Shown one piece after another: positions 4,454-21,715 of a stretch of DNA of 64,000 bases; the stretch's first letter is position 1, and each line of letters begins with the position of its first letter. The notes under the pieces were generated by a model, which saw only the letters and a program-made list of their open reading frames with translations, had not been told where the DNA came from and did not search any database. This DNA is from Streptacidiphilus pinicola (GTDB lineage: Bacteria > Actinomycetota > Actinomycetes > Streptomycetales > Streptomycetaceae). The stretch lies in NCBI RefSeq assembly GCF_003258295.1, contig NZ_QKYN01000089.1, forward strand, positions 1 to 64,000, given 5' to 3'. The position numbers and the translations under genes were made by a program.

Positions 4454-4960
4454 TCACCGCGCCGCTGCTCGGGCGGTGCATAGGACGTACCGCCCGAGCC
4501 CGCACAGCTCCCAGGTCGGCAGCCCCGCGATGACCTCACCGGACACTCTGCCCCGGGGTGTGGGGCACGTCATGGCTGACCTCCTACGGCATGGGCGGGG
4601 CATGGGTGGCCGCGGCGGTCTGGGCCGCAGTCGCAGCGGCGACGGTCCTTGGGGCGGCCCGCCGCAGGGTCGCTCCCGCCGACCCCGCGTCGTTAGCCCG
4701 GACGGTGCCCGACGGCGTCGGCCGGCCTCGCCGACGGACACGTGGCCCTGGCAGGCTGGTTTCGGCAGGCCGATCGGCGTCCCGGCGCCTTGTCGAAACT
4801 CGGGGTGAGAACGGCGTCGTGGCCGTGCCCGTCGTGGACTGCGCGTTCGGTTCGCCTTCCTGTTCGCGCTGGGTGTTGTCGAGTTCCGGCCGGTCGAGTT
4901 CTCACGGTCACGGCGGCGCCCCGAGCCGGTTCCTCACCGGCCGTCTGAACCCTACCCGCG
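4454..4960. other. Non-coding stretch with a possible small membrane-protein remnant
   Basis: No confident gene is present. From a GTG at 4558 the plus strand encodes a short segment, SWLTSYGMGGAWVAAAVW followed by AAATVLGAARRR, which looks like one membrane helix with a basic border as in SHOCT-type small membrane proteins. The frame then runs on with no recognisable SHOCT tail, and no ribosome binding site precedes the GTG. I read it as either decayed or chance. Confidence 0.3.
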
Positions 4961-5419
4961 TCATCGCAGCCGAGGGTTGGTGCCGGATGAGTTCGCGTCC
5001 TGCTGTTGCGGCGCGGGGGCGCCGTCCGGACGGGCCCGGATGGACAGACCCGGACGGCGGCGGTGGATGGTGAGGTAGGACAAGCCGTCCGGACCTGCGG
5101 CAAGGGCACGCCTCGAGCCTCGTGGGAGCCAGAACAAAGCTCCCACTGTCATCGCCTGGTCGCGGTCCGGGCTGGTGAGGGTCCCGTCGCCCGCCATGAC
5201 GAGGAGGAGGACGTCCAGGTCCGGCTCCGCGTGCGCGTCCACGTGCCGTCCGGGCGTCAGGCGGATGAGGTTGGCATCGAGCTGGCGTCCGCGTTCGGCG
5301 AGCTTCCAGACAGCCCCGGTCGCCTCGGCTCCGCTCTCGACAAGGTCTTGGGTGTTGCACAGGAGCCGGGCCAGCGGCCCGTCGGACGCGAAGGCCATGG
5401 CTGATGCCTCATCGGACAT
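4961..5419 (-). CDS. Cupin-like small protein, cotranscribed with hemerythrin/DUF2249 gene
   Basis: A 152-residue protein starting at ATG 5419 (MSDEASAMAFASDGPLARLL). It overlaps the end of the upstream hemerythrin/DUF2249 gene by 11 bp, which argues for translational coupling. Residues about 30-115 read as a single beta-barrel cupin: LDANLIRLTPGRHVDAH, then DLDVLLLVMAGDGTLTSPD and ALFWLPRGSRRALAAG. HVDAHAEPDLDVLL resembles a degenerate cupin metal motif with two histidines. The last 30 residues are polar and probably disordered. Cupins of this size often sense or bind a metal or small ligand. No substrate can be assigned. Confidence 0.7.
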   Translation of the reverse strand: MSDEASAMAFASDGPLARLLCNTQDLVESGAEATGAVWKLAERGRQLDANLIRLTPGRHVDAHAEPDLDVLLLVMAGDGTLTSPDRDQAMTVGALFWLPRGSRRALAAGPDGLSYLTIHRRRPGLSIRARPDGAPAPQQQDANSSGTNPRLR

Positions 5420-6158
5420 GGGTTGCCACCCGGCCGATGCGCACGCGCCACCGCTCGGGGCCCGATTCGAGGTAATCCCAGGTGAACCCGTCTGGGTGGG
5501 CGGCCTCGAATTCGCGGCGCAGCGGCTTGGGGTCGTGGTTGTTGACCAGGGTGAAGGCCTCGCCTGGGGCGAGTCGTGCGTAGCGGGCGAAGATGCGTGG
5601 GTGGCGCTGGTCGTGCGGGATCCGGGCGACGTCGACGACATCGGGCCGATCGAGGTGGCCGCCGGCCTGCATGGTGCTCCAGGCTGCGGTCAAGGACTCC
5701 ATGTCGGCGCCGCCTGGGAGGGCGGCGAGCGCCGGCAGCAGGACCGTCTGCTCCGCCTCGAGATGGGCGGCCGTCAGGGCTTCGATGCCGTGGGCCAGAG
5801 CGTCGACCGTGTCCGCATCGTCGGTGCGGGAGAGCGCCTCGATGCGCTCGTCGAGTGATCTCACCTGCAGTCGAAGGGCTCTGACCAGCAGGCGGGTCTC
5901 GGCCGCACCTGCGGCAGGCGCGTACAGGACCTGGTCGGAGGCGGCGAGATGGCGGCGCAGGTCTCCGACGCAGAACGCCACGAGCGCCGCCCACGCCTCT
6001 TCCAGGGCATCGTGGGCAAGGTCGAGTTCGGTCGACAAGGCGACCTTGGCTCTGAGGGTCGACAGGAGTCGGCGGCCGGCTTCCTCGATCGCTTCCCCGG
6101 CCTTGACGGCCGGGGCGGCCCCTGTCACTTGGATGTCGATCTCCGTGGACGGTGTCAT
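5409..6158 (-). CDS. Hemerythrin-like domain fused to DUF2249
   Basis: A 249-residue soluble protein with two domains. Residues about 15-160 are a four-helix bundle of hemerythrin type, with spaced histidines and acids (DLAHDALEEAWAALV, DLRRHLAASDQVLY, GIEALTAAHLEAEQTVLLPA). Residues about 180-245 are DUF2249, with VARIPHDQRHPRIFARYARL, FTLVNNHDPKPLRREFEA and GFTWDYLESGPERWRVRIGR. Hemerythrin and DUF2249 domains recur together near nitric-oxide and denitrification genes, so a role in oxygen or NO chemistry is likely but inferred. The gene is divergent from the ferredoxin gene at 6256 across a 97-bp AT-rich promoter region, and it is followed by an overlapping cupin gene. Confidence 0.8.
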   Translation of the reverse strand: MTPSTEIDIQVTGAAPAVKAGEAIEEAGRRLLSTLRAKVALSTELDLAHDALEEAWAALVAFCVGDLRRHLAASDQVLYAPAAGAAETRLLVRALRLQVRSLDERIEALSRTDDADTVDALAHGIEALTAAHLEAEQTVLLPALAALPGGADMESLTAAWSTMQAGGHLDRPDVVDVARIPHDQRHPRIFARYARLAPGEAFTLVNNHDPKPLRREFEAAHPDGFTWDYLESGPERWRVRIGRVATHVR

Positions 6159-6194
6159 GACCTCGCTCCTCTCGGGCAGCCCCTCCAGGTATAA

Positions 6195-6212
6195 CCTATT
6201 TCTCCATGTAGG
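6195..6212. promoter_or_regulatory. CCTA-N10-TAGG inverted repeat in divergent promoter
   Basis: The 97-bp gap between the divergent hemerythrin/DUF2249 and ferredoxin genes holds CCTATTTCTCCATGTAGG, an inverted repeat CCTA-N10-TAGG. It lies within AT-rich sequence (about 6190-6233) that stands out from the surrounding GC-rich DNA. Its place suits an operator serving both directions. The HTH regulator encoded at 6594-7253 is the obvious candidate protein. The repeat is seen directly; its function is inferred. Confidence 0.45.
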
Positions 6213-6255
6213 ATTTGTAAAAACACTCGCGGTGGCAGATGTTGAGGAGGCCGTT

Positions 6256-6597
6256 GTGACCTACGTGATCGCGCAGCCGTGCGTGGACGTGAAGGACAAG
6301 GCGTGCATCGAGGAATGCCCGGTCGACTGCATCTACGAGGGGCGGCGCTCGCTGTACATCCACCCGGACGAGTGCGTGGACTGCGGCGCGTGCGAGCCTG
6401 TCTGCCCGGTGGAGGCGATCTTCTACGAGGACGACGTGCCTGCCGAGTGGCAGGCGTACACCCCGGCCAACGCGGAGTTCTTCGACGACCTGGGCTCTCC
6501 CGGCGGAGCGGCGAAGCTGGGACGGATCGACCACGACCACCCGCTGGTCGCGGAGCTGTCCTCGGCCGTGAACGAGGCCGCGCAGGAGGGCGTGTGA
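6256..6597 (+). CDS. fdxA: 7Fe ferredoxin (FdxA type)
   Basis: A 113-residue ferredoxin that carries electrons in the cytoplasm through one [3Fe-4S] and one [4Fe-4S] cluster. The first cluster motif is CVDVKDKACIEECPVDC (C-x7-C-x3-CP) and the second is CVDCGACEPVCPVEAI (CxxCxxCxxxCP). The C-terminal extension (PAEWQAYTPANAEFF) is typical of the actinobacterial FdxA group. The start is GTG 6256, preceded by GAGGAGG at 6244-6250; open sequence upstream is not family-like. The stop overlaps the GTG of the next regulator gene by 4 bp (GTGA), so the two are almost certainly cotranscribed. It is divergent from the hemerythrin/DUF2249 gene. Its redox partner is unknown. Confidence 0.93.
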   Translation: MTYVIAQPCVDVKDKACIEECPVDCIYEGRRSLYIHPDECVDCGACEPVCPVEAIFYEDDVPAEWQAYTPANAEFFDDLGSPGGAAKLGRIDHDHPLVAELSSAVNEAAQEGV

Positions 6598-7253
6598 TCG
6601 CGGTGGAGCGTTCGCGCCGACAGCAGATCCTGGACCTGCTCCGGGCGGTGGCCGAACCGCTGGGAGCGGCGGAGGTGGCCGAGCGGCTGGGCGTCCACGC
6701 CAACACCGCCCGCTTCCATCTCGACGCCCTGGTGTCGCAGGGCGTGGTCGAGCGTGGCTCGGAGGACCGGTCCGGTCCGGGACGTCCGCGCACCGTGTAC
6801 TCCCCCCGCCAAGGCATGGACCGGGGCGGGGTGCGCAGCTACCGGCTGCTGGCGCAGATCCTCCTCAGCCAATTGGCGTCGTCCGGGCCGGACGCGGGCG
6901 AAGCAGTCCGTCAGGCAGGGCAGGACTGGGGCCGCTACCTGGTCGAGCCCCCGCCGCCGCACCGCGTGGCGACCGCCGAGGAGGCGGCAGCCCGGCTGAT
7001 CGCGCTCCTGGGCGATCTCGGGTTCGACCCCGATCCGGGCGCACCCGGTCCCACCGTGCCGGGTGTGATCCGGCTGCGCCACTGCCCGTTCCTGGAGCTT
7101 GCCGAGGAGTACGGGCCCCTTGTGTGCCAGTCCCACCTGGGCCTGATGCAGGGCGCGTTGCACCAACTGCGGGCACCGGTCACCGCAGCCGGCCTGGTGC
7201 CGTTCGCCGAGCCGGGCGCCTGTCTGGCCCATCTGTCACCCGTCGCGGCCTGA
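6594..7253 (+). CDS. HTH regulator with C-terminal cysteine cluster (SufR/ArsR-like)
   Basis: A 219-residue DNA-binding regulator. Residues about 5-65 are a winged HTH: RQQILDLLRAVAEPLGAAEV, AERLGVHANTARFHLDALV, then a wing around RSGPGRPRTVYS. The C-terminal half ends with RLRHCPFLELAEEYGPLVCQ and GACLAHLS. This gives HCPF, a cysteine 13 residues on and a later one, the pattern found in regulators that carry a metal or Fe-S cluster, such as SufR. It starts at a GTG overlapping the ferredoxin stop (GTGA), so it is made with an Fe-S protein. It may sense Fe-S status, NO or oxygen and act on the CCTA-N10-TAGG site at 6195-6212. The HTH call is firm; the cluster is inferred. Confidence 0.85.
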   Translation: MIAVERSRRQQILDLLRAVAEPLGAAEVAERLGVHANTARFHLDALVSQGVVERGSEDRSGPGRPRTVYSPRQGMDRGGVRSYRLLAQILLSQLASSGPDAGEAVRQAGQDWGRYLVEPPPPHRVATAEEAAARLIALLGDLGFDPDPGAPGPTVPGVIRLRHCPFLELAEEYGPLVCQSHLGLMQGALHQLRAPVTAAGLVPFAEPGACLAHLSPVAA

Positions 7254-7316
7254 CCCCGATGCGACGCCAGGCCACCGGCAACGAGCCGTTCACGCCCTAC
7301 CTGTAGGAGGCCTCTC

Positions 7317-7688
7317 ATGCACATCGCCGACATCGGCGCCACGGCTCGCCGCCAGGCTCCGATCCAGGGCGGCCCCACCGCCGCCCTGCTCATCCCGTCC
7401 GGGACGTCCGACCAGGTGGCCGTCTTCCACCTGGAGATCCCGCCCGGCGGGGCCATGCCCGAACACGACCACGGCCCCTCGCAGATCGTCCTGGTCCCGC
7501 TCGCGGGCCTGGTCGAGGTTCACCACGACGGTCGGGCCACGACCCTGTCTCCCGGTATGACCGCCCACGTCGGAGTCGGCGAGCGCGTGCGTCTGGCCAA
7601 TCCCGGCACCGAGCCCGCGTCCGTGGTCGTGGTGGCGAGCCCGGCCGCGTTCGCCGACCGCCTGGCCTCCTGGCCGGCCGTCTCGTGA
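7317..7688 (+). CDS. Cupin domain protein
   Basis: A 123-residue single-domain cupin with a good ribosome binding site (GGAGG at 7306-7310). The barrel core is FHLEIPPGGAMPEHDHGPSQ, a conserved cupin motif 1 with two histidines that can bind a metal. Motif 2 is weaker, around LSPGMTAHVGVGERVRLANP, and includes one histidine. Such proteins often buffer a small molecule or act as simple oxygen or sulfur chemistry enzymes. It follows the ferredoxin and cysteine-rich regulator genes and its stop overlaps the GTG of the next membrane-protein gene by 4 bp. It is therefore part of this redox module. The substrate is unknown. Confidence 0.8.
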   Translation: MHIADIGATARRQAPIQGGPTAALLIPSGTSDQVAVFHLEIPPGGAMPEHDHGPSQIVLVPLAGLVEVHHDGRATTLSPGMTAHVGVGERVRLANPGTEPASVVVVASPAAFADRLASWPAVS

Positions 7689-8104
7689 CCGCCGATGCCG
7701 CCGGCGCGCTGGTCTTCCTCTGGCTCGGCATGGTGCTGGCGATCTCCTTCCTGGAGGCGCCGCTGAAGTTCCGAGCGCCCGGCGTGACGATCCCGATCGG
7801 GCTCGGCATCGGGCGCCTGGTGTTCCGGGCCCTGAACCTCGTCGAGGTCGCGCTCGCCGTCACGGTTGTCGCGCTCGCGGTCCCCGGTGGTCCTCGGCCC
7901 GCTGCGACGGGGCTCGCCGCACTCGTCGTCGCGGTTCTCGCCGTGCAGCTCGGACTGGTGCGTCCGCGGCTGAACCGGCGTTCCGACCGGGTCCTCGCGG
8001 GTGCGCAGTTGCCGCGGTCCCGGGGTCATCTCGCCTACGTGGCACTGGAGCTCATCAAGGTGATCGCCCTGGTGGCTCTCGGGATCAGCCTGCTGACGCA
8101 CTGA
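7685..8104 (+). CDS. Four-helix integral membrane protein, unknown function
   Basis: A 139-residue hydrophobic protein starting at a GTG that overlaps the preceding cupin stop (GTGA). Four membrane segments can be seen: AAGALVFLWLGMVLAISFLE, LVEVALAVTVVALAV, AALVVAVLAVQLGLV and LELIKVIALVALGISLL. The segment SFLEAPLKFRAPGVTIPIGL after helix 1 looks like a conserved re-entrant or loop region. I do not recognise a named family. Coupling to the cupin, regulator and ferredoxin genes suggests a membrane part of the same redox response. The uracil-DNA glycosylase gene converges on it, with only 15 bp between the two stops. Confidence 0.75.
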   Translation: MTADAAGALVFLWLGMVLAISFLEAPLKFRAPGVTIPIGLGIGRLVFRALNLVEVALAVTVVALAVPGGPRPAATGLAALVVAVLAVQLGLVRPRLNRRSDRVLAGAQLPRSRGHLAYVALELIKVIALVALGISLLTH

Positions 8105-8119
8105 AACGGCCCTGCAGGT

Positions 8120-8923
8120 TCACTGTGGGCCCGGCCGGTCCCGGAGGCCGGCGAGGTCGGCTCCGCGGCGCAGAACGTCGCGGAGCATGGCGGGGGTGAG
8201 CGTGCGGGTGGACATGTTGCGCTGACTGGGGTGGTAGCCGCCGACGAGGTGGAGGGCGTGGCCGGTGGCCGGGTCCGCGATCGACGCCTCGGCGCCGTGC
8301 CCGAACGAGGGGCGCGGACGGGGCCGTTCCCAACCGGCCTGAGCCAGGACCGGCAGCAGCGCCTGCCAGGCGAAGCCGCCGAGGACGACGACGGCACGCA
8401 GCGTGGGGCGCAGCAGCTCCAGTTCGCGGGCGAGCCAGGGGCGACAGGTGTCGCGCTCGCCGGTGGTGGGTTTGTTGTCGGGCGGGGCGCAGTGCACGGG
8501 CACGGTGATGCGCACCCCGTACAGCTCAAGTCCGTCGCCTCGGTGTGTGGCGACCGGCTGGGAGGCCAGGCCGACGTCGTACAGGGCGGAGTAGAGAGCG
8601 TCGCCGGACGGGTCGCCGGTGAAGATCCGGCCGGTGCGGTTGCCGCCGTGTGCGGCCGGAGCCAGACCGACGATCGCCAGCGGCGCGTCCAGCGGACCGA
8701 ACCCGGGCACCGGCCGGGCCCAGTACTCCCAGTCCCGGAACGCGCGCCGTTTGACCCGGGCGACCTCCTCCCGCCACGCGACCAGGCGCGGGCAGGCCCG
8801 GCAGGTGACCAGTGCGGCGTCCAGTTCCGGTACGTCCCGCGCGCCGGGTGCGGTCACCGCGGGGAAGCCCGCGGCGTCGGTCGCGGGCCGCGCTCGCCTG
8901 CGGACTGGTCGGATCTCGTCCAT
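8120..8923 (-). CDS. Family 5 uracil-DNA glycosylase (UDGb)
   Basis: A 267-residue DNA repair enzyme of the Fe-S-containing uracil-DNA glycosylase family 5. It removes uracil, and in this family also hypoxanthine or xanthine, from DNA to start base excision repair. The signature GLAPAAHGGNRTGRIFTGD carries motif 1, and GGYHPSQRNMSTRTLTP carries the late HPS region. Cysteines at TCRACPRLVAW and in VHCAPPDNKPTTGERDTC fit the four-cysteine cluster. The start is ATG 8923, preceded by GAGGAG; the frame is open further upstream without family sequence. It is divergent from a DUF488 gene at 9109, sharing a 185-bp intergenic region that contains a TACAAT -10-like box at 8991. Confidence 0.9.
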   Translation of the reverse strand: MDEIRPVRRRARPATDAAGFPAVTAPGARDVPELDAALVTCRACPRLVAWREEVARVKRRAFRDWEYWARPVPGFGPLDAPLAIVGLAPAAHGGNRTGRIFTGDPSGDALYSALYDVGLASQPVATHRGDGLELYGVRITVPVHCAPPDNKPTTGERDTCRPWLARELELLRPTLRAVVVLGGFAWQALLPVLAQAGWERPRPRPSFGHGAEASIADPATGHALHLVGGYHPSQRNMSTRTLTPAMLRDVLRRGADLAGLRDRPGPQ

Positions 8924-9108
8924 GCCCGGCTCCTCTCGTGCAGCCCCCGCGGTCGACCGCCGTGCACCGGCCCGGGAGCGCCGCCCTCGATACAATGAGC
9001 AGGTCCGCGGGCAGGCTCGGCATCGTCCCGGGCGAAGGCGGTCCCGGCCAGGCCGCGCGGGCCCTCGAACAGCACGTGTCGTGCCGTACGGTCCGGAAGG
9101 AGACGGCC

Positions 9109-9471
9109 ATGGTCAACCAGGTCACCTGCCGCCGAGTCTACGAGGAGACCTCGCCGAAGGACGGCACGCGGGTCCTCGTCGACCGGGTCTGGCCTCGCGG
9201 CATGCGCAAGCAGGACGCACACATGGACGAGTGGCTGCGTGACGTGGCCCCCTCCACCGAGCTGCGCCACTGGTACGGCCATGAGCCGGACCGCTTCCCG
9301 GAGTTCCGGCGCCGCTACCTGTCCGAACTCGACGACCCGGCACACCGCCAGGCGGCGGAGCACCTGCGTGACCTCGCCGCCCACCAGAAGCTGACGCTGC
9401 TTACCGCCACCAAGGACCTCGATCACAGCCAGGCCGCGGTGCTCGCGCAGTGGCTCAACGGCACGCACTGA
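9109..9471 (+). CDS. DUF488 family protein (stand-alone)
   Basis: A 120-residue DUF488 protein. Family hallmarks are RVLVDRVWPRGMRKQDAHMD, WLRDVAPSTELRHWYGH, PEFRRRYLSEL and LTLLTATKDLDHSQAAVLAQ. The start is ATG 9109, placed 6 nt after an AGGAGA ribosome binding site, although the frame is open upstream. The biochemical role of DUF488 is not established; the fold resembles nucleotide or nucleic-acid enzymes. Here it sits head-to-head with a uracil-DNA glycosylase. The second DUF488 in this window, at 23135-23953, is fused to an alkyltransferase-like DNA repair domain. That context favours a link to nucleic-acid repair. Its 3' neighbour is the NADH dehydrogenase gene, 16 bp away. Confidence 0.85.
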   Translation: MVNQVTCRRVYEETSPKDGTRVLVDRVWPRGMRKQDAHMDEWLRDVAPSTELRHWYGHEPDRFPEFRRRYLSELDDPAHRQAAEHLRDLAAHQKLTLLTATKDLDHSQAAVLAQWLNGTH

Positions 9472-12115: not shown

Positions 12116-12448
12116 TCAGACCGGCTTCGCGACCGTCAGCAGCGCGGCAGCGTCCTCGATCGCTTCCAGGCTGTGCCGGGCTGCGGGCACGATGAGGAGG
12201 TCGCCGGTCATGCCCTCCCAGGTGGTGTCGCCGCTGTGCAGGCGTACCCGCCCGTGCAGCACCAGCACTGTTGCCTCACCGGGGCTTTCGTGCTCGGCCA
12301 GCGACGAGCCGGCGCGCAATGCGATGAGGGTCTGCCGCAGGGTGTGTTCGTGGCCGCCATAGACGGTCTCGGCGCTGCGGCCGGTGGAGGAAGTCGTCGC
12401 GCGTGCCAAGTTCTCGCGTACCCGGGCGTCGAGGGAGAGCTTCTGCAT
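12116..12448 (-). CDS. Small cupin domain protein
   Basis: A 110-residue cupin starting at ATG 12448 (MQKLSLDARVRENLARA). The barrel reads TLRQTLIALRAGSSLAEHES, then TVLVLHGRVRLHSGDTTW, and ends MTGDLLIVPAARHSLEAIED, so metal-ligand histidines are reduced to one or two. Members of this type are frequent beside redox and stress genes in actinomycetes and are thought to bind a small ligand. It is flanked by debris: the NADH dehydrogenase fragment to the left and a possible group II intron protein remnant to the right. No operon partner is evident. Third cupin of the window. Confidence 0.8.
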   Translation of the reverse strand: MQKLSLDARVRENLARATTSSTGRSAETVYGGHEHTLRQTLIALRAGSSLAEHESPGEATVLVLHGRVRLHSGDTTWEGMTGDLLIVPAARHSLEAIEDAAALLTVAKPV

Positions 12449-12758: not shown

Positions 12759-13895
12759 TCACCCGGTCGCCCCGCTGTGTGTGCCGGTGGCCGTATGCGC
12801 GGCGCGCAGCAGGTGGCGTGCCATCGCGGCGAAGGTGACGAACCAGGCTGCGAGGGCCGCCCAACTCTCGGCGTCGCCGAGGGCTTTGACGATCGGCAGG
12901 TGGTCGGCTTGGCCGAGGTAGCTTCCCGCCACGGCATACATGCCGAGGGGGAAGACGATGCTCCATAGGGTCGGGTCGTAGCGCAACGGCACGCGGTGCA
13001 CGAGGTGTCGCCAGATCCCGGCGGCGATCAGGGGCGGGATCAGCCAACTGCCGAAGGCCCAGAACAGTACGGAGGATCCGGCGATCAGACCGCGGGTGGC
13101 GGCGATCATCGGAGCGTCGGCCATCTCGATGATGCGAGCTCCGGCGACGACCGTGATCGCGGTCGCTCCCATGGCGACCCAGTAGGGCGGGGTGAGATCT
13201 TCGGGCCCGAAGCTGTACAGCAGCATGCGGGCGGTCACGAGCACGCCGTTGCCGGCGTAGAGGAAGACTCCGACGGACCAGGAGAAGACGGCGAGCAGTG
13301 CCAGTTCCCGCCGTCCCTGGCTGATGGCGGGTTCGAGGGCGGCGGCGAGCACGGCGACGGACTGGCTGGCGACCACCCAGATGAACCAGGTGCCGTTGGC
13401 TTCGGAGAGTACTGGCCTGCGCACGTGGCGCAGTACCGCGGTCCACGGCACGACGTAGCCGAGCACCAGCCAGGCGGCCCAGCCGAGCGCGAGCAGTGCG
13501 AAGCCGGCTGTGTGGTGGCCGTCGACGGCAAGGCGGGTGCCCAGGACGTCGGTGCCGGCGACGAGGGTGAAGGTGCCGAAGGCGCGGCGAGGGTCGGTCA
13601 GGTCCTTCGCCAGTGCGGGCCGGTAGCGGGCCAGGCGCCACACGGTGAGCAGCGCGAGCACGGCGTATTCGATGCCGGCGAGCCATAGCAGCGCCACGGA
13701 TAGGGGGTACGCGTGCTGGTTGCGCATCGCGATCGAGACGATGCCCGTGGCCATCACCAGTGCGAAGTAGCCGGGGTGCAGTGTGCGCACGCCTTCACGT
13801 ACCAGGGCGGCGCGCGTCATGCCGTCGGGTTCGCGGTCGGCGTCGGAGCCGCCGGGCGGCGGTTCCTCGCACCCGCCGGGCTCAGTAGGGGACAC
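12759..13895 (-). CDS. SLAC1/TDT-family transporter
   Basis: A 378-residue membrane protein of the tellurite-resistance/dicarboxylate transporter (SLAC1, TehA) family with about ten helices. The first helix carries the family mark HPGYFALVMATGIVSIAM, followed by VALLWLAGIEYAVLALLTVW, AGTDVLGTRLAVDG and WSIVFPLGMYAVAGSYLG. The GTG start at 13895 overlaps the end of narI by 14 bp, so it is probably the fifth cistron of the nar operon. An internal ATG at 13820 is an alternative start. Linked to nitrate reductase, it may move an anion such as nitrate or nitrite, but TDT members also carry dicarboxylates, sulfite or chloride. No NarK-type transporter gene is in the window. Confidence 0.85.
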   Translation of the reverse strand: MSPTEPGGCEEPPPGGSDADREPDGMTRAALVREGVRTLHPGYFALVMATGIVSIAMRNQHAYPLSVALLWLAGIEYAVLALLTVWRLARYRPALAKDLTDPRRAFGTFTLVAGTDVLGTRLAVDGHHTAGFALLALGWAAWLVLGYVVPWTAVLRHVRRPVLSEANGTWFIWVVASQSVAVLAAALEPAISQGRRELALLAVFSWSVGVFLYAGNGVLVTARMLLYSFGPEDLTPPYWVAMGATAITVVAGARIIEMADAPMIAATRGLIAGSSVLFWAFGSWLIPPLIAAGIWRHLVHRVPLRYDPTLWSIVFPLGMYAVAGSYLGQADHLPIVKALGDAESWAALAAWFVTFAAMARHLLRAAHTATGTHSGATG

Positions 13896-14634
13896 CGATC
13901 TTGCGCCACTTGCGTCCGCCGGTTCCCGGCTCGTTCGGGTGGGTGGCCTTGCGGCTGCGGAAGACGATGTAGGGTCGCCACAGATACCAAAGCGGGTAAC
14001 TCCACGCGTGCACGAGCCGGCTGAAGGGCCAGACGCCCCAGACCATCCACGCGGCGGTGGCGTGGATCTGGTAGATCAGTGGGGCGTGCGCGATCGCCTG
14101 GATATCGGGGGAGCCCGAGAAAAGGCCGCGGAACCAGGGGGCGACGGTCGCGCGGTAGTCGTAACCGTGGCCGAGCAGATTGACCCCGATGGTGGGCGCG
14201 ATGCCGGTGAGCACGACAATCAGCAGCAGGACGAGTGCGACGTAGTCGATGCCGGCGGTGGTCGCGCGCACCCGGGGGACGAACAGGCGGCGAGTGGCGA
14301 GCACGGTGATCCCGCCGATCACCAGGACCGCGGCGAGGGTGCCCGCGCCGGCGGAGAACCAGCGGTAGACCGGTTCGGGGATGCCGACAGCGTGCGTCCA
14401 GCGTTCGGGGATCAACACCCCGATCACGTGCCCGGCGATCGCGGCGAACGTGCCGTAGTGGAAGATCGGCGCGCCCCATTTCAACAGCCTGCGTTCCTGG
14501 AGCTGGGTGGAGCGGCTGGTCCAGCCGAACTGGTCGTAGCGCCAGCGCCAGACGTGCCCGACCACGAAGACGCCGAGTGTGAGGTAGGGCAGGGCCACCC
14601 ACCAGAAGATCTGCGCGGTAGTCGCGTTCGTCAT
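13882..14634 (-). CDS. narI: Respiratory nitrate reductase gamma subunit (cytochrome b)
   Basis: A 250-residue integral membrane diheme cytochrome b that takes electrons from menaquinol and passes them to NarH. Helices are seen at IFWWVALPYLTLGVFVVGHV, HYGTFAAIAGHVIGVLIPE, AVLVIGGITVLATRR, VALVLLLIVVLTG and IHATAAWMVWGVWPFSRLVH. The heme-ligand histidines include GHVWRWRYDQFGW near the N-terminus, the HYGTF and GHVIGV histidines, and the late HATAAWMVW and RLVHAWS histidines. The length is close to the family norm of about 225-250. The ATG overlaps the narJ stop (ATGA). Downstream, the TDT transporter gene overlaps its 3' end. Confidence 0.94.
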   Translation of the reverse strand: MTNATTAQIFWWVALPYLTLGVFVVGHVWRWRYDQFGWTSRSTQLQERRLLKWGAPIFHYGTFAAIAGHVIGVLIPERWTHAVGIPEPVYRWFSAGAGTLAAVLVIGGITVLATRRLFVPRVRATTAGIDYVALVLLLIVVLTGIAPTIGVNLLGHGYDYRATVAPWFRGLFSGSPDIQAIAHAPLIYQIHATAAWMVWGVWPFSRLVHAWSYPLWYLWRPYIVFRSRKATHPNEPGTGGRKWRKIGVPY

Positions 14635-15323
14635 CGTCCTCCGCTCCTCGCGTGACCGTCGGATGTGAGCACGGCGGGAGCGGCGACGTGCACGGGCACG
14701 CGCCCGATCCCGGGTGTGCCGTATCCGGTGAGGTACTCGGGAGGTGCGAACGGCTCGACCCCGACCTGCTCCCGCGGCGGCCCGTCATCCCACGCCTTGG
14801 ACACGAGCCCGATATCGCGGCGGGAAAGCCTCGGCAGGTGCGCGCACACGGCCCCGACGACATCCGTGTACGGCGAACCGGCCTTGTCCAGGGCGCGCCT
14901 GAGCAGCTCCAGGTCGGCTCGATGACCCCGGATCAACCTGAGGCCACGGTCACTCAAGGACGCGAACTCCAAGACCATCGGCACATAGTCGGGCAGTTCC
15001 CGGTCGCTGGGGGTGAAGCCGGCGGCACGATAGGCGGTCTTGAACTCGAGCATGGCCATGCCGCGCTTGCGGGTGTCGCCGTACCGGTAGTAGGTCAGGT
15101 ACAGGGCACAGCGGCGGCGCAGGTCGAAGGTCTCCACGTAGTGCTGCGCGACGGTGGTCGGGTCGGTGTCCCGCAGCCAGGCAAGGAACCGTGCGAACGC
15201 CTCTCGGGAGGGTTTCGGGCCGGTGCCGGCGGCGTACGCCTGGAGTTCGTCGAGGCCTGTGAACAGTGCCGTCGTGGGGTACTGCAGCAGCACCGAGGCG
15301 AGTTTGAACTCGCGGCCGGTCAC
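14631..15323 (-). CDS. narJ: Nitrate reductase molybdenum cofactor assembly chaperone
   Basis: A 230-residue member of the NarJ/TorD chaperone family. It binds apo-NarG and is needed for molybdenum cofactor insertion, but is not part of the final enzyme. Seen are KLASVLLQYPTTALFTGLDE, YVETFDLRRRCALYLTYYRY, GDTRKRGMAMLEFKTAYR, LPDYVPMVLEFASL and YTDVVGAVCAHLP, all in the usual order. The GTG start overlaps the narH stop and its stop overlaps the narI start, so translation through the operon is coupled. The C-terminus is proline-rich and longer than in enteric NarJ, as is common in actinomycetes. Confidence 0.92.
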   Translation of the reverse strand: MTGREFKLASVLLQYPTTALFTGLDELQAYAAGTGPKPSREAFARFLAWLRDTDPTTVAQHYVETFDLRRRCALYLTYYRYGDTRKRGMAMLEFKTAYRAAGFTPSDRELPDYVPMVLEFASLSDRGLRLIRGHRADLELLRRALDKAGSPYTDVVGAVCAHLPRLSRRDIGLVSKAWDDGPPREQVGVEPFAPPEYLTGYGTPGIGRVPVHVAAPAVLTSDGHARSGGR

Positions 15324-16954
15324 GAGGCCTCCCCTTCGGGGAACAGGCCCGGTGCGGGACTGCGACCGTCCCAGCCGAGCAGGTTGAAGCGGGTGCGCCC
15401 GTCCTCGGCCGCGAAGGTCTGCCCGGCACCCGGGGTGCCGGTGGGCCGGTAGGAGCGGATGCCGTGCCCACCGGGACCCTCTCCTCCCATTCCCGGGCCG
15501 CCTTCCGTATCGAGACTGCAGAACAGTTGCTCGTGCTGGCCCATCAGCCGACCGGCCTCCTCGGCGTGGGCCGGGGGGATGACGTAGCGGTCCTCGTACT
15601 TCGCGATGGCCAGCAGCCGGAACAGGTCGTCGAGCTCGTCCGCGGAGGCACCGACGGAGGCGGGCAGATCCTCGTCCAGGTCCAGGCCGAGCTGTCCGGC
15701 CCGCTGGATCGCCCGGACAGCGGCAAGCTTGCGCAGCACCCGCCGGATCGGCGCCGGGTCCCCTGCGGTGAACAGGTTCGCCAGGTACTCGACCGGGATG
15801 CGCAGCGCGTCGATGGTGGCAAACACGGCGTCCGGCCTGTCCGGGTCGTAGCCGGCGGCGTCGACGACGTCGGAGACCGGGGAGAGCGGCGGGATGTACC
15901 AGACCATCGGCAGTGTGCGGTATTCCGGATGCAGCGGCAGCGCGACCTTGTGGCGGACCGCGAGCTCATAGACCGGGGAACGCTTGGCGGCCTCGATCCA
16001 GTCGTGCGGGATCCCCGCCTGAGCGGCCGCGGCCTGCACGGCCGGATCGTGCGGGTCGAGGAACACCGAAAGCTGCGCCTCGTAAAGACCCTGCGCGTCG
16101 GGGGTGGCTGCGGCGTCGAGCACCTTGTCGGCGTCGTAGAGGAACAGGCCCAGGTAGCGAAGCCGCCCGACGCAGGTCTCCGAGCACACGGTCGGCTGCC
16201 CGGCCTCGATCCGCGGGAAGCAGAACGTGCACTTCTCCGCCTTGCCCGTGCGGTGGTTGAAATACACCTTCTTGTACGGACAGCCCGAGACGCACATGCG
16301 CCAGCCGCGACAGCGGTCCTGGTCGACCAGGACGATGCCGTCCTCGGCGCGCTTGTACATCGCCCCGGAGGGACACGAGGCGACACACGAGGGGTTGAGG
16401 CAGTGCTCGCAGATGCGCGGCAGGTAGAACATGAAAACCTGCTCGAACTCCATCCGCACGCGCTCCTGCAGCCCGGCGAGGTTCGGATCGCCCGCGGCGT
16501 GCTCGGGCGCGCCGGCCAGGTCGTCCTCGAAGTTGCTGCCCCAGGTGACCTTCATGTCCTTACCCGTCAGGGCGGAGATCGAGTGGGCGCTCGGGTTGCG
16601 GGTGCCCAGCGGCGCCTCGATGAGGGTCTGGTAGTCGTAGGTCCACGGGTCGCCGTAGTCGTCGATCGTGGGCAGGTCCGGGTTGTAGAAGATCGTCAGG
16701 AGTTTGCGCAGCCGCCCGCCGGCCTTGAGCTGGAGTCGGCCCTTCTTGTCCAGGGCCCAGCCGCCGTGCCATTGCTCCTGGTCCTCGTACCGCTTCGGAT
16801 AGCCGACGCCGGGCTTGGTCTCGACGTTGTTGAAGTACACGTACTCGGTGCCCGGCCGGTTGGTCCACACCTGCTTGCAGGTGACCGAACACGTGTGACA
16901 GCCGATGCACTTGTCCAGGTTCATCACCATCGCCACGTTCGCCATGACGCGCAT
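15320..16954 (-). CDS. narH: Respiratory nitrate reductase beta subunit (Fe-S)
   Basis: A 544-residue Fe-S subunit carrying three [4Fe-4S] and one [3Fe-4S] cluster. It links NarI heme to the NarG active site on the cytoplasmic face of the membrane. Cluster motifs are CIGCHTCSVTCKQVW, CEHCLNPSCVASCPSGA, CRGWRMCVSGCPYKK and CTFCFPRIEAGQPTVCSETC. The tryptophan in CRGWRMC replaces a cysteine, the known reason NarH has a [3Fe-4S] centre. The start ATG 16954 lies just past the narG stop with AGGAGG inside the narG end. Its length is a little more than enteric NarH (about 512). The narJ start overlaps its stop. Confidence 0.95.
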   Translation of the reverse strand: MRVMANVAMVMNLDKCIGCHTCSVTCKQVWTNRPGTEYVYFNNVETKPGVGYPKRYEDQEQWHGGWALDKKGRLQLKAGGRLRKLLTIFYNPDLPTIDDYGDPWTYDYQTLIEAPLGTRNPSAHSISALTGKDMKVTWGSNFEDDLAGAPEHAAGDPNLAGLQERVRMEFEQVFMFYLPRICEHCLNPSCVASCPSGAMYKRAEDGIVLVDQDRCRGWRMCVSGCPYKKVYFNHRTGKAEKCTFCFPRIEAGQPTVCSETCVGRLRYLGLFLYDADKVLDAAATPDAQGLYEAQLSVFLDPHDPAVQAAAAQAGIPHDWIEAAKRSPVYELAVRHKVALPLHPEYRTLPMVWYIPPLSPVSDVVDAAGYDPDRPDAVFATIDALRIPVEYLANLFTAGDPAPIRRVLRKLAAVRAIQRAGQLGLDLDEDLPASVGASADELDDLFRLLAIAKYEDRYVIPPAHAEEAGRLMGQHEQLFCSLDTEGGPGMGGEGPGGHGIRSYRPTGTPGAGQTFAAEDGRTRFNLLGWDGRSPAPGLFPEGEAS

Positions 16955-16955
16955 G

Positions 16956-19900
16956 TCAGAACTCCACCTCCTGGGCGCGGCGGCGGATGACCGTGACCTC
17001 GTCGCGCTGGTTACCGGTCGGGCCGTAGTAGTTGAACCCGTACGAGAACTGGCCGTAGCCGCCGATCATGTGGGTGGGTTTGACCACCAGGCGGGTCAGG
17101 GAGTTGTCTCCACCGCCGTGCCAGCCGGAGACCTCGGACTTCGGGGTCATCAGGTGCCGGTCCTGCGCGTGGTACATGTACACCGTGCCCTGCGGCATCC
17201 GGTGGGTGACCACGGCCCGCGCGGTGACCACACCGTTGCGGTTGAACGCCTCGATCCAGTCGTTGTCCGCCACCTTGATCTTCGCCGCGTCTTGCGGGCT
17301 CATCCAGATCACCGGTCCGCCGCGGAACAGCCGGAGCATGTGCAGGTTGTCCTGGTATTCCGAATGGATCGACCACTTCGAATGCGGGGTCAGGTAGCGG
17401 ACCATGATCTCCGGACGGCCCGCCTCGCCCAGGCCCTGGTCACCGTAGTGCCGCGGATAGTCCAGCGGCGGACGGTAGGCCGGCAACTGTTCGCCGTACT
17501 CGGCCATCCACTCGTGGTCCAGGAAGAAGTGCATCCGACCGGTCAGGGTGTGCCAGGGCTTCTTCCGCTCGACGTTGACCACGAACGCCGAATAACGTCG
17601 CCCCCCGGTCTCGCTGCCCGACCACTCCGGCGAGGTGATCACTGCTCGCGGCTGGACCTGCGTGTCGGCGAACGAGATCCGCTCACCGGCGCGCTCCTCA
17701 GCCAGATCCGCCAGCTTCACCCCGGTGCGCTCCTCCAGCGCGTGCCACCCCTGGAGTGCGACCTCACCGTTGGTGGTGCCGGACAGCGCGAGGATCGCCT
17801 CGGCCATGTGCACGTCCCGCACCAGCTTCGGCCGCCCGTCCGCCACGCCGCCGCGCACCCGCCCGTTGACCCGCCCGAGCAGGTCGACCGCCGCCACCGG
17901 TTTCCAGGAGATGCCCTTGACGGCAGTGCCCGCGCTCTCCACGAGCGGGCCGAGCGCGGCCATCTTCGCCGCCACCGCCGCGTAGTCGCGCTCGACGGTG
18001 ACCAGCTTCGGCATCGTCACCCCGGGGACCGGTTCGCACTCACCGCGCCGCCAGTCACGCGCCACACCACCGGGCTGCGCGAGCTCGTCCGGGCTGTCGT
18101 GCATCAGCGGGACGGTCAGGACGTCGGTGCGCGTGCCCAGATGCTGCGCGGCCAGCTTCGAGAACGCCTCCCCGATCGTCTTGAACACCTCGAAGTCGGT
18201 GCGCGTCTCCCACGGCGGGGCGATGGCCGGGTTGAACGAGTGCACGAACGGGTGCATGTCGGTGGTGGAGATGTCGTGCTTCTCGTACCAGGTGGCCGCC
18301 GGCAGCACGATGTCCGAGTACGTACACGTACTGGTCATCCGGAAGTCGATGGTCGTGACGAGGTCGAGCTTGCCCCGCGGCGCCTCCTCACGCCAGGCCA
18401 CCTCCGCGGGCCGCAGATGCTCCGGGGACTCGGCGGCGCGCACCGCGTCCTCGACCCCGAGCAGGTGGCGCATGAAGTACTCCATGCCTTTGCCGGAGGA
18501 GCCGAGCAGGTTCGCTCGCCACACCGTCATCACCCGCGGGAAGTTCGCCGGATCGTCCGGATCCTCGCCCGCGAAACGCAGCCGGCCAGCCTGCAGTTCC
18601 TCGACCACGTACGCGTTCACGTCCTTGCCGGCCGCGGCCGCCGCATCCGCCAAATCCAGCGGGTTGCGGTCGAACGCCGGATGCGACGGGGTCCAGCCCA
18701 TCCGCGAGGCCTGAGCGAGCGCATCGACGAACGCCCGCTTGGTGAACAGCCCCCGCCCGAGCGGACTGGAGAACTGCGCGGCGTCGAAGTGCTCGTAACG
18801 CCACTGGTCAGTGTGCAGATAGAAGAACGACGTCCCGGTCATGTGCCGGGTCGGGCGCTGCCAGTCCAGGCCGAAAGCCACCTGCTGGAACCCGGTGAGC
18901 GGACGCACTTTCTCCTGCCCGACATAGTGCGCCCACCCGCCGCCGTTCACCCCCTGACACCCGCACAGCATCGTGAGGGTGAAAAACGACCGGTAGATCT
19001 GGTCCGAGTGGAACCAGTGGTTCGTCCCCGCGCCCATCGCGATCATCGACCGGCCGCGGGAGAGCTCCGCGTTGCGCGCGAACTCACGCGCCACCCGCGC
19101 CGCCGCGGCCGCCGGCACCGAGGTGATCGCCTCCTGCCACGCCGGGGTGTACGGGCTCGACGCATCCTCGTAACCCGTCGGCCAGGTGCCCGGCAGACCC
19201 TCACGCCCCACCCCGTACTGCGCCATCAGCAGATCGAACACCGTGGTCACCAGGCGATCGCCGAGCCGGCGCACCGGCACGCCGCGCCGGATGACCCCGC
19301 CGCCCTCCGTCTGCCCCACGTCGAAACGCGGCAGATCCACCGCCACCGACTCCGCGTCCGCCGTATAGAGGCTCAGCAGCGGATCCACGCCGCCGAGATC
19401 CAGGTTCCACCGGCCCGCCCCGGAGGCGGAGAAGCGGCTGGCAAGGGTGCCGTTCGGGAACACCGGCTCGCCACTCACGGCATCCAGCAGCACCGTCTGA
19501 TGCGCCGCGGCCTCCCGGCTCGCGCCGAGGTCCGCGGCCGTCAGGAACCGGTCCGGCACGAAGCCGTCGCCGCGCTCACGCAGGGTGACCAGGAACGGCA
19601 GGTCCGTGTAGGTCTTGACGTAGTCGGTGAAGTACGGGACCTGCCGGTCCCGGAAGAATTCGGTCAGCACCACGTGGCCCATCGACATCGCCAGCGCGGC
19701 GTCCTTGCCAGGGGCGCACGCCAGCCAGTCGTCGGCGAACTTCGTGTGATCCGAATAGTCCGGGCTGACTACCACCACCTTCTGCCCCTTGTATCGCGCC
19801 TCCGTCATGAAGTGCGCGTCCGGGGTCCGGGTGATCGGCAGGTTCGTGCCCCAGATCATCAGGTAGGACGAGTTCCACCAGTCACCCGACTCCGGCACGT

Positions 19901-20696
19901 CGGTCTGGTCCCCGAACACCTGCGGCGAGGCGATCGGCATGTCGGCGTACCAGTCGTAGAACGACAGGATCGTCCCGCCGATCATCGACAGGAACCGGGT
20001 GCCCGCACTGTAGGAGACCTGCGACATCGCCGGGATCGGCGAGAAACCCACCACCCGGTCCGGACCGTACCGCTTGACCGTGTGCACGTGCGCCGCGGCG
20101 ATCAGCTCACTGACCTCGTCCCAGCCCGCCCGCACGAACCCGCCCTTGCCCCGGGCGCCCTTGTATCGTGCGGTGCGCTCCGGATCCCGGGTGATCTCCG
20201 CCCAGGCCGCGACCGCGTCACCGAGCCGTGAGCGCGCCTCGCGCCACATCTGGAGCAGCGGACCGCGAACGTACGGGTAGCGCACCCGGGAGGGCGAGTA
20301 GGTGTACCAGGAGAACGACGCCCCGCGCGGGCAGCCACGTGGCTCGTACTCCGGGGAATCGGGCCCGACCGAGGGATAATCGGTCTGCTGGGTCTCCCAC
20401 GTGATGATCCCGTCCTTGACGTACACCTTCCACGAGCACGACCCGGTGCAGTTCACCCCATGGGTCGACCGCACTTCCTTGTCGTGCCGCCAGCGCTCCC
20501 GGTAGAACTCCTCCGCCCCTCGCCCACCGCGCCGGTGCACCTCGCGATAGTCGGCAGTGGGATCGCCTGGAGTGAAGAACTGCGCCGCGCGCAGCAGCGA
20601 CTCCACCGGCTCCCCGCCCGGCACAAGCGGCGCCAGGCTTCCGCCTGGCGCGTCCTCGCCGCCGTGTCCGCCGACATCCCGCTCTGCTCGCCTCAC
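16956..20696 (-). CDS. narG: Respiratory nitrate reductase alpha subunit (molybdopterin)
   Basis: The catalytic subunit, about 1246 residues, which reduces nitrate to nitrite at a bis-MGD molybdenum centre facing the cytoplasm. The FS0 motif is STHGVNCTGSCSWKVYVKDG (H-x3-C-x3-C) and is followed by YPSVGPDSPEYEPRGCPRGA. FYDWYADMPIASPQ is the region holding the molybdenum-ligand aspartate in E. coli NarG. Later blocks include RTPDAHFMTEARYKGQK and CGCQGVNGGGWAHYVGQEKV. The GTG at 20696 lies 6 nt after GAGGT and gives the normal length; the frame is open to 20927 without family sequence, and GTG 20702 is an alternative. First gene of narGHJI, so it should head an oxygen- or nitrate-controlled transcript, but no clear regulator box was found upstream. 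Confidence 0.95.
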   Translation of the reverse strand: MRRAERDVGGHGGEDAPGGSLAPLVPGGEPVESLLRAAQFFTPGDPTADYREVHRRGGRGAEEFYRERWRHDKEVRSTHGVNCTGSCSWKVYVKDGIITWETQQTDYPSVGPDSPEYEPRGCPRGASFSWYTYSPSRVRYPYVRGPLLQMWREARSRLGDAVAAWAEITRDPERTARYKGARGKGGFVRAGWDEVSELIAAAHVHTVKRYGPDRVVGFSPIPAMSQVSYSAGTRFLSMIGGTILSFYDWYADMPIASPQVFGDQTDVPESGDWWNSSYLMIWGTNLPITRTPDAHFMTEARYKGQKVVVVSPDYSDHTKFADDWLACAPGKDAALAMSMGHVVLTEFFRDRQVPYFTDYVKTYTDLPFLVTLRERGDGFVPDRFLTAADLGASREAAAHQTVLLDAVSGEPVFPNGTLASRFSASGAGRWNLDLGGVDPLLSLYTADAESVAVDLPRFDVGQTEGGGVIRRGVPVRRLGDRLVTTVFDLLMAQYGVGREGLPGTWPTGYEDASSPYTPAWQEAITSVPAAAAARVAREFARNAELSRGRSMIAMGAGTNHWFHSDQIYRSFFTLTMLCGCQGVNGGGWAHYVGQEKVRPLTGFQQVAFGLDWQRPTRHMTGTSFFYLHTDQWRYEHFDAAQFSSPLGRGLFTKRAFVDALAQASRMGWTPSHPAFDRNPLDLADAAAAAGKDVNAYVVEELQAGRLRFAGEDPDDPANFPRVMTVWRANLLGSSGKGMEYFMRHLLGVEDAVRAAESPEHLRPAEVAWREEAPRGKLDLVTTIDFRMTSTCTYSDIVLPAATWYEKHDISTTDMHPFVHSFNPAIAPPWETRTDFEVFKTIGEAFSKLAAQHLGTRTDVLTVPLMHDSPDELAQPGGVARDWRRGECEPVPGVTMPKLVTVERDYAAVAAKMAALGPLVESAGTAVKGISWKPVAAVDLLGRVNGRVRGGVADGRPKLVRDVHMAEAILALSGTTNGEVALQGWHALEERTGVKLADLAEERAGERISFADTQVQPRAVITSPEWSGSETGGRRYSAFVVNVERKKPWHTLTGRMHFFLDHEWMAEYGEQLPAYRPPLDYPRHYGDQGLGEAGRPEIMVRYLTPHSKWSIHSEYQDNLHMLRLFRGGPVIWMSPQDAAKIKVADNDWIEAFNRNGVVTARAVVTHRMPQGTVYMYHAQDRHLMTPKSEVSGWHGGGDNSLTRLVVKPTHMIGGYGQFSYGFNYYGPTGNQRDEVTVIRRRAQEVEF

Positions 20697-21127
20697 GCTC
20701 ACACCTCGGCAGTCGCGCTCAAGCCCAGGGCCAAGATCCAGCCCACGCATCACCGGTGAGCGGTTCCGCAACCTCCGAGCACTTGACCATCCACCAGCAC
20801 CCAACAGTAACTTGGCACTCAACTCAACCCATCGGACGACGCGCCACCGGACGCTGCCCGGTCCCAGACGGAACGTCATCTCCGACACCATCACCTGCGA
20901 ACGCCAGAAGGCACCGACACCCCACACGCTGACTCCGCGGGCCTCCCGAGGTGTGCGCGGAGATGTCCCCGCGGTTCACTCCCGTAGTGGCCGCGACGCG
21001 CCCTCGGCCCGCAACCGGCGACCGTGCGATGCGGAGCGCGTGAGCGACCTGATGTCCGGTCACACTGGTTCCCAAGCCTTCCTCTTGGACGGGCGCCGAC
21101 CACCACCGTCGAAAGGGCCAGCGAGCC
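20697..21127. other. 431-bp divergent promoter region, narG and USP
   Basis: The region separates narG (minus) and the USP gene (plus), and the promoters of both must lie here. I searched for FNR-like TTGAT-N4-ATCAA, Rex-like and DosR-like GGGAC-type palindromes by eye and found none convincing. No small gene was seen. Confidence 0.5.
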
Positions 21128-21581: not shown

Positions 21582-21715
21582 GACGTTGAAGCCCGATCCG
21601 GGGGATGGTGCCGCCGGCTCTGCCTGCGGTCCCACCGGCACCCAGCGCACACTGGAGAAACGGCGACCGAACCACCCGGATCGGCCTGCGAGGAGACCGG
21701 GGGAGGAGGCAGGAC

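Follow-up and report, generated by a model that had tools for sequence, protein, structure and literature searches.

A recurring divergent gene cluster of Streptacidiphilus pinicola and other actinobacteria, probably controlled at one DNA site by an iron-sulfur sensor of its own, and probably responsive to nitric oxide

The stretch of DNA analysed here, 64,000 nucleotides from the start of contig NZ_QKYN01000089.1 of Streptacidiphilus pinicola (RefSeq assembly GCF_003258295.1; 8.43 Mb, 281 contigs, 98.65% complete) and called the window below, carries at positions 4961-8104 six genes in two divergent arms: cupA and hhe-DUF2249 on one side, and fdxA, a regulator gene (reg), cupB and tm4 on the other (Table 1). 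All six are genuine genes that recur together, and the cluster is probably controlled through one DNA site by an iron-sulfur (Fe-S) sensor that it encodes itself; it probably answers nitric oxide (NO), because some relatives carry a known NO sensor in the place of the regulator. With a rough probability of 0.6, judged from sequence, we take it to be a self-contained derepression module that responds to NO (nitrosative stress) by a circuit of the ArnR/NsrR type. The computed features on which this reading draws are the gene set and its recurrence, the co-occurrence of a single operator-like site with the regulator, the three-cysteine, TRAPP-like architecture of the regulator, and the presence of NsrR-like proteins, some with hmp, in its slot.

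How constant is the gene set? A 17-row alignment of the regulator was searched against contigs from one genome per species (GTDB) and the best 80 of 456 homologous stretches were kept, loci truncated by contig ends included. In these 80 loci tm4 lies downstream of the regulator in 60, cupA is divergent from it in 54 and hhe-DUF2249 in 30, and cupB is found in 13; fdxA stands directly upstream in merely 29, so that a ferredoxin encoded with its own regulator, as a preliminary description of this DNA had pictured the system, is not supported as the core. All five partners occur together in 10 loci and none in 3, and any other neighbour family is common to at most 23. By these counts the core is cupA, the regulator and tm4, the other genes are accessories, and the window has the set in its fullest form. 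Species of several actinobacterial families carry the unit, in Streptomyces, Actinomadura, Kribbella, Pseudonocardia, Catenulispora, Actinacidiphila and other genera; its members are not scattered in relatives, and no open PMC paper describing the set was found by title or abstract start.

The regulator has an N-terminal winged helix-turn-helix (HTH) domain (HTH_20, 35.5 bits against a cut-off of 27; HTH_IclR, 32.5 against 22), with which the predicted fold agrees, and residues 78-218 resemble TRAPP/Bet3 in structure (Z 12.4, root-mean-square deviation 3.6, 138 aligned, TRAPP filling the top eight rows). Foldseek alone gave nothing at E<=0.001 (best 2.5e-3), the TRAPP domain emerging from a second look at the matches, and sequence matches to TRAPPC3 are weak (best E 0.11). 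The protein has exactly three cysteines, C164-x13-C178-x31-C210, which together with H181 are invariant in all 22 sequences of an alignment whose other members share 36-66% identity with the window regulator. This is the layout reported for ArnR, which has an HTH domain, a TRAPPC3-like sensor domain, C179, C193 and C223, and a conserved histidine near its cluster (PMC12343034). ArnR holds a [4Fe-4S] cluster, and its DNA binding is abolished by NO and not by nitrite (PMC12343034); in Corynebacterium glutamicum it represses narKGHJI and hmp (PMC12343034, PMC10436651). The shared architecture supports the suggestion, made at the outset, that the regulator is probably of the Fe-S type. It is not NsrR: the Rrf2 domain PF02082, present in five scanned Rrf2 proteins (L137, L138, L139, L151 and L071), is absent from its Pfam matches at E<=0.1.

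Where might this regulator act? The same preliminary description had placed a CCTA-N10-TAGG repeat between the arms. That a DNA site lies there has held up, the site being however a different, overlapping element of 31 bp, an imperfect inverted repeat over its full length. The CCTA-N10-TAGG pattern is a single copy in the window (6195-6212), which is marginal, as 8 of 100 shuffles also hold one; in its strict form it is missing from all 29 loci L002-L030, which include many distant homologues, and from all 80 loci L031-L110, so that it is not itself the conserved element and was rejected as the regulator's site. It may instead be two outward-facing, -10-like TAGG hexamers. The 31-bp element was found by comparing promoter regions, its consensus reading CNATTATTACATGTAGTATTCGTRAAAAA followed by weak columns, and its information content, 1.47 bits per position against 0.19 and 0.14 in the two 25-bp flanks, marks it as a footprint rather than a general similarity of promoters.

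A weight matrix trained on the promoter regions exceeds 25 bits in 73 of the 80 loci, and R1, a covariance-tool model made with 65 distinct sites, recognizes a single place in each of 68 loci at E<=1 and no further one in 1.22 Mb, both counts being partly circular because the sites were learned from the same loci. The matches precede the regulator arm except in L031, where the site stands ahead of a co-directional cupA. Left out of the training, the window site still scores 44.6, and the runner-up in the 64 kb, at 16.1, is this site read on the opposite strand. R1 has exactly one match in the genome of S. pinicola, beside the regulator (its E-value is not independent), which speaks against a genome-wide regulon; the sole other match to the operator pattern there, with 3 mismatches, is at G000:C137:3006-3031. 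Among 17 genomes that encode a regulator homologue, 13 have exactly one match, again beside the regulator (weakly in G042, E 0.47), and 10 of 15 further loci with the regulator have one; none was found in 13 congeners without an intact close regulator, nor in 17 cupA/tm4 loci without an intact ArnR-like regulator. Site and regulator thus largely travel together, which is the strongest indication from sequence comparison that the regulator reads the 31-bp site. Across loci a TANNAT hexamer lies inside the operator in the fdxA/reg direction, a position that would suit repression by occlusion; a sigma-70 scan of 4900-8200 found no promoter, which counts against this candidate -10 hexamer.

Table 1. 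Genes and predicted regulatory elements of the divergent cluster (window positions)
Feature	Position	Strand	Description
cupA	4961..5419	-	small cupin-like protein, 152 amino acids
hhe-DUF2249	5409..6158	-	degenerate hemerythrin-like domain plus DUF2249 domain, 249 amino acids
predicted operator	6196..6226	.	31-bp imperfect inverted repeat, centre 6211, overlaps CCTA-N10-TAGG
candidate -10 hexamer TAGGAT	6209..6214	+	fdxA arm, inside the operator; putative, from the consensus across loci
fdxA	6256..6597	+	7Fe-type ferredoxin (FdxA_Actino), GTG start; NF045480
reg	6594..7253	+	ArnR-like regulator: winged HTH plus TRAPP/Bet3-like C-terminal domain
cupB	7317..7688	+	cupin, 123 amino acids; Cupin_2
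tm4	7685..8104	+	predicted four-helix protein, 139 amino acids, taken as membrane protein, weakly DUF4149-like

The case for NO as the signal begins with loci in which the regulator has been exchanged. Among 297 genomes of the family, 46 have tm4 at E<=1e-25; it stands with an ArnR-like regulator in 27 of these (one locus being split by contig ends), and in five (L137, L138, L139, L203 and L204) the protein encoded upstream of tm4 is instead NsrR-like and of the Rrf2 family, for which the rough chance expectation is 0.0005 per locus. In three of these loci hmp stands between nsrR and tm4, and in four cupA is divergent. In L137-L139 the NsrR model of NCBIfam is best by E-value yet under its cut-off, whereas the Rrf2 superfamily model is over its own; L203 and L204 were assigned by their identity to L138, 82% and 77% respectively. 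A sixth case, L151, has the order cupA-hmp-nsrR, and in L071 an hmp-nsrR pair starts about 1.4 kb past the tm4 of a normal module. None of L137-L139, L151, L203 and L204 yielded the 31-bp site. By eye, L137, L138, L139, L203 and L204 share a different, A+T-rich promoter element, approximately CATGCGNATTTG-TAGCGTC. Of the two signals first proposed, NO or oxygen, these replacements, the ArnR layout and what is known of ArnR's chemistry favour NO; oxygen is neither shown nor excluded.

More distant homologues of the regulator keep similar company. They lie between narK and narG in L129 and L131 and, in L135, between narK and a probable beginning of narG that the contig end truncates; others are upstream of a NirK-like gene with HHE-DUF2249 divergent in L127, L128 and L130, and beside hmp in L211 or a short hmp-like match in L212, the NarK and NirK models being best matches under their cut-offs. 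In a regulator tree of 45 rows, 11 of them second segments of genes already included, the NirK-type homologues form one branch (100/99) and the window row is not firmly placed; one L129 homologue (5719-6693) and those of L211-L215 were left out by the length/coverage filter. Other loci have cupA or tm4 only (L140-L147, L149, L150, L152, L153, L189, L194 and L195, and further L198-L200, L202, L207 and L208), with neither an intact regulator of either type beside them nor a widely shared neighbour, and with a regulator remnant in L141. By eye, tm4 and a cupin adjoin moaA- and mobA-like genes of molybdenum cofactor synthesis in L143 (2422-4113), a hint at nitrate enzymes, and in L149 (4700-7097) cupA is divergent from a cytochrome oxidase subunit I-like gene, with a DUF488 and a glycosylase-like gene nearby. 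In L148, of the congener G007, cupA stands beside short regulator fragments, apparently a decayed module in the same genus.

The remaining products are described in part by family profiles. Order, overlaps and domains match those first described, the two arms, the named domains and the tight overlaps being borne out by gene coordinates and domain scores: cupA and hhe-DUF2249 overlap by 11 bp, GTGA is common to the end of fdxA and the start of reg and again to the cupB/tm4 overlap, and 63 bp separate reg from cupB. The ferredoxin is over its cut-off (FdxA_Actino, 190.3 bits against 125), and CupB is a clear cupin (Cupin_2, 37.9 against 27.2); CupA falls under the Cupin_2 cut-off at 14.8 bits, and its His63 and His119 are invariant in 32 of 32 aligned sequences. 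For Tm4 no family is over its cut-off; DUF4149 (PF13664) reaches 12.5 bits against 24.6 and is hit at E<=1, and at best 7.4e-4, by 24 of the 49 proteins in the alignment, and a comparison of its fold with the PDB gave no match at E<=0.001. Next to the module lie a Uracil-DNA-glycosylase-like gene (8120-8995) and a DUF488 gene (9106-9471), and a DUF488 match also falls inside 10 of the 80 module loci.

The HHE-DUF2249 protein deserves separate mention. Its DUF2249 domain is matched at E 4.9e-26, and the Hemerythrin profile is passed modestly (28.1 bits against the Pfam cut-off of 25.3). The di-iron site of hemerythrin and RIC proteins is built by four histidine and two glutamate ligands. With helices assigned by eye in 28 aligned sequences, the helix-1 histidine is found in 21 (the window protein has Gly28), that of helix 2 in 18 (His70 in the window), that of helix 3 in none and that of helix 4 in 19 (His132 in the window), whereas Glu136 is kept in all 28, as are His186 and His208 of the DUF2249 domain. 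Metal chemistry by the hemerythrin domain, to which oxygen and NO had been tied at first, is accordingly not supported, its ligands not being conserved, and the DUF2249 pair His186/His208 and the CupA pair His63/His119 appear to be better candidates for function. In haloarchaea DUF2249 proteins are induced during denitrification, and in Thermus they have been linked to nitrate respiration (PMC11218638).

How could the parts work together? The regulator would be a dimer carrying an Fe-S cluster, probably [4Fe-4S], held by its three cysteines and a fourth ligand; bound to the single 31-bp inverted repeat in the shared promoter, it would repress both arms, its own gene included. NO would destroy or nitrosylate the cluster, the regulator would leave the DNA, and both arms would be transcribed, their products then removing NO or limiting the damage that it does. 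CupA and Tm4 would be the effectors in most loci, joined in the fuller version by HHE-DUF2249, the 7Fe ferredoxin and the second cupin. Binding at the site, the cluster, NO as the signal, the mode of repression and the roles of the effectors are what we infer from the comparisons above.

Several observations weigh against this scheme. The association with NsrR and hmp is functional company and not proof that the regulator senses NO, and the likeness to ArnR was judged from published features rather than by sequence alignment. R1 misses 12 of the 80 loci, and it has no match in five of the 15 further regulator loci (L187, L192, L197, L205 and L206) or in the genomes G061, G064, G086 and G087, whose regulators are 45-50% identical. 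In 14 of the 46 tm4 genomes neither regulator stands beside tm4, which can thus serve outside this circuit, and the degenerate HHE ligands do not follow the four-histidine, two-glutamate pattern. In the own genome the operator has no match at nar, and just 9 of the 14 module genomes contain narG. In searches with one NsrR query (E<=1e-20) and one Hmp query (E<=1e-60), nsrR and hmp were both kept in 9 of the 14.

The same searches left 5 of the 14 with neither gene, so that mutual exclusion of nsrR/hmp and the module does not hold. No NsrR or Hmp match at these thresholds was found in the genome of S. pinicola, nor in the module genomes G018, G028, G042 and G054; the congeners G001, G005, G010 and G012, which are without the operator, have both genes, and the congener G007, with its cupA beside regulator fragments, has neither. 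In S. pinicola the module may therefore be the chief dedicated response to NO. Going further, one could imagine an undescribed NO-tolerance pathway able to stand in for NsrR-HmpA, in which CupA, Tm4 and HHE-DUF2249, supplied by the 7Fe ferredoxin, dispose of NO or repair its damage, which serves as the main NO defence where nsrR and hmp are undetected, and over whose effector genes two unrelated families of Fe-S regulators, ArnR-like and Rrf2/NsrR, have been exchanged, each with an operator of its own; this is possible, though we regard it as rather doubtful.

Perhaps, alternatively, the regulator reports oxygen or the Fe-S or iron status of the cell in the manner of SufR, the module serves to build or shield proteins with Fe-S or non-haem iron under low oxygen or iron stress, and NsrR replaces the regulator merely as a fellow cluster protein. 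SufR is an HTH-plus-cysteine sensor found in Streptomyces, Mycobacterium and cyanobacteria, a type that the window regulator shares, and its profile does match, albeit weakly; a 7Fe ferredoxin accompanies 29 of the 80 module loci, and ArnR of C. glutamicum has been described as indirectly sensing anaerobicity (PMC12343034). Yet the SufR score is far under the family cut-off (TIGR02702, 21.5 bits against 178.8), on which SufR identity was rejected; the regulator has three cysteines only, no suf gene is among the scanned window neighbours, the replacing protein is NsrR-like and in 3 of 5 cases accompanied by hmp, which encodes an NO enzyme, and nar, NirK-like or hmp genes adjoin distant homologues. 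Oxygen or Fe-S status thus appears unlikely as the signal but remains a real rival to NO.

A role as a helper of nitrate respiration, tied to narGHJI and answering nitrate or nitrite, is quite improbable. The window does contain narGHJI, about 6 kb from the module (13882-20927, minus strand), and narG (E<=1e-100) is commoner in module genomes than in others (9/14 vs 30/86, P=0.04 without correction for kinship); in two genomes, and probably in a third, a distant homologue of the regulator is flanked by narK and narG, and Rv2621c of Mycobacterium tuberculosis is listed among genes raised on day 1 of exposure to nitrite (PMC6593118). However, 5 of the 14 module genomes have no narG match, and in 6 of the 8 other narG-bearing ones narG is more than 100 kb away or on another contig; with these statistics, and the own-genome operator confined to the module, the nearness of narGHJI, correctly noticed at first, is a mild hint at most, and a tight link was rejected. 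No Cu-nitrite reductase was found at E<=1e-20 in the own genome. Around narGHJI lie a membrane transporter-like frame just downstream (12759-13895, by eye), a GAF-SpoIIE protein (21605-23071) and, near narI, a small cupin (12116-12448). In roughly a dozen other loci, several of them from Actinomadura, a homologue of this cupin follows directly after the regulator in convergent orientation; similar-looking cupins adjoin tm4 in L142 and L143.

Very improbable is an ordinary operon under local autoregulation that encodes small cupins plus a membrane protein and answers another ligand, such as an electrophile or a metal, through a cysteine-rich domain binding zinc instead of Fe-S: zinc is also present in ArnR preparations and bound by TRAPPC3 templates (PMC12343034), and M. 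tuberculosis Rv2620c-Rv2622 are among genes lowered by aldehyde in a copper study (PMC10470581), but neither the exchange for NsrR-like proteins, some with hmp, nor the nar, NirK and hmp neighbourhoods of distant homologues would be explained.

If the NO-responsive circuit is right, it would give a likely physiological context to families without one, namely DUF2249, the DUF4149-like membrane protein and the small cupin, and would extend ArnR-type sensing from nitrate respiration in Corynebacterium to a private regulon in Streptomyces-like bacteria. It would also represent a natural swap of regulators, ArnR-like for NsrR-like, over the same genes, and an entry to how actinobacteria without detectable flavohaemoglobin may meet NO; the module is of particular interest in S. 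pinicola, where nsrR and hmp are undetected. The operator prediction is precise, naming one defined 31-bp site.

Which known systems come closest? RIC/YtfE, hemerythrin-like proteins of NO stress, share with the window protein an HHE domain and a tie to nitrosative stress, but the latter keeps two of four ligand histidines, belongs to a family without the helix-3 histidine and is fused to DUF2249. In M. tuberculosis, Rv2621c has been called ArnR-like (PMC12343034) and the product of the adjoining Rv2620c is given as a conserved transmembrane protein (PMC10470581), any similarity of Rv2620c to Tm4 being only a lead. NsrR of Streptomyces coelicolor, like the proposed circuit, has a small dedicated regulon and an inverted-repeat operator (PMC4432287), and an NsrR-like protein fills the same slot in five genomes; it differs in belonging to the Rrf2 family, another fold class by profile, in reading a 23-bp (11-1-11) rather than a 31-bp site, and in its pairing with hmpA, which is outside the window's module. 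ArnR, likewise actinobacterial, shares with the regulator, by published description, the winged HTH, the TRAPPC3-like C-terminal domain, three conserved cysteines with the C-x13-C spacing and the conserved histidine, and nar and hmp genes recur beside distant homologues of the regulator. In contrast to ArnR, the window's only operator match lies at the regulator's own divergent promoter, that of an undescribed gene set, with none at nar and with hmp undetected, and for this reason the protein is best called ArnR-like rather than ArnR.

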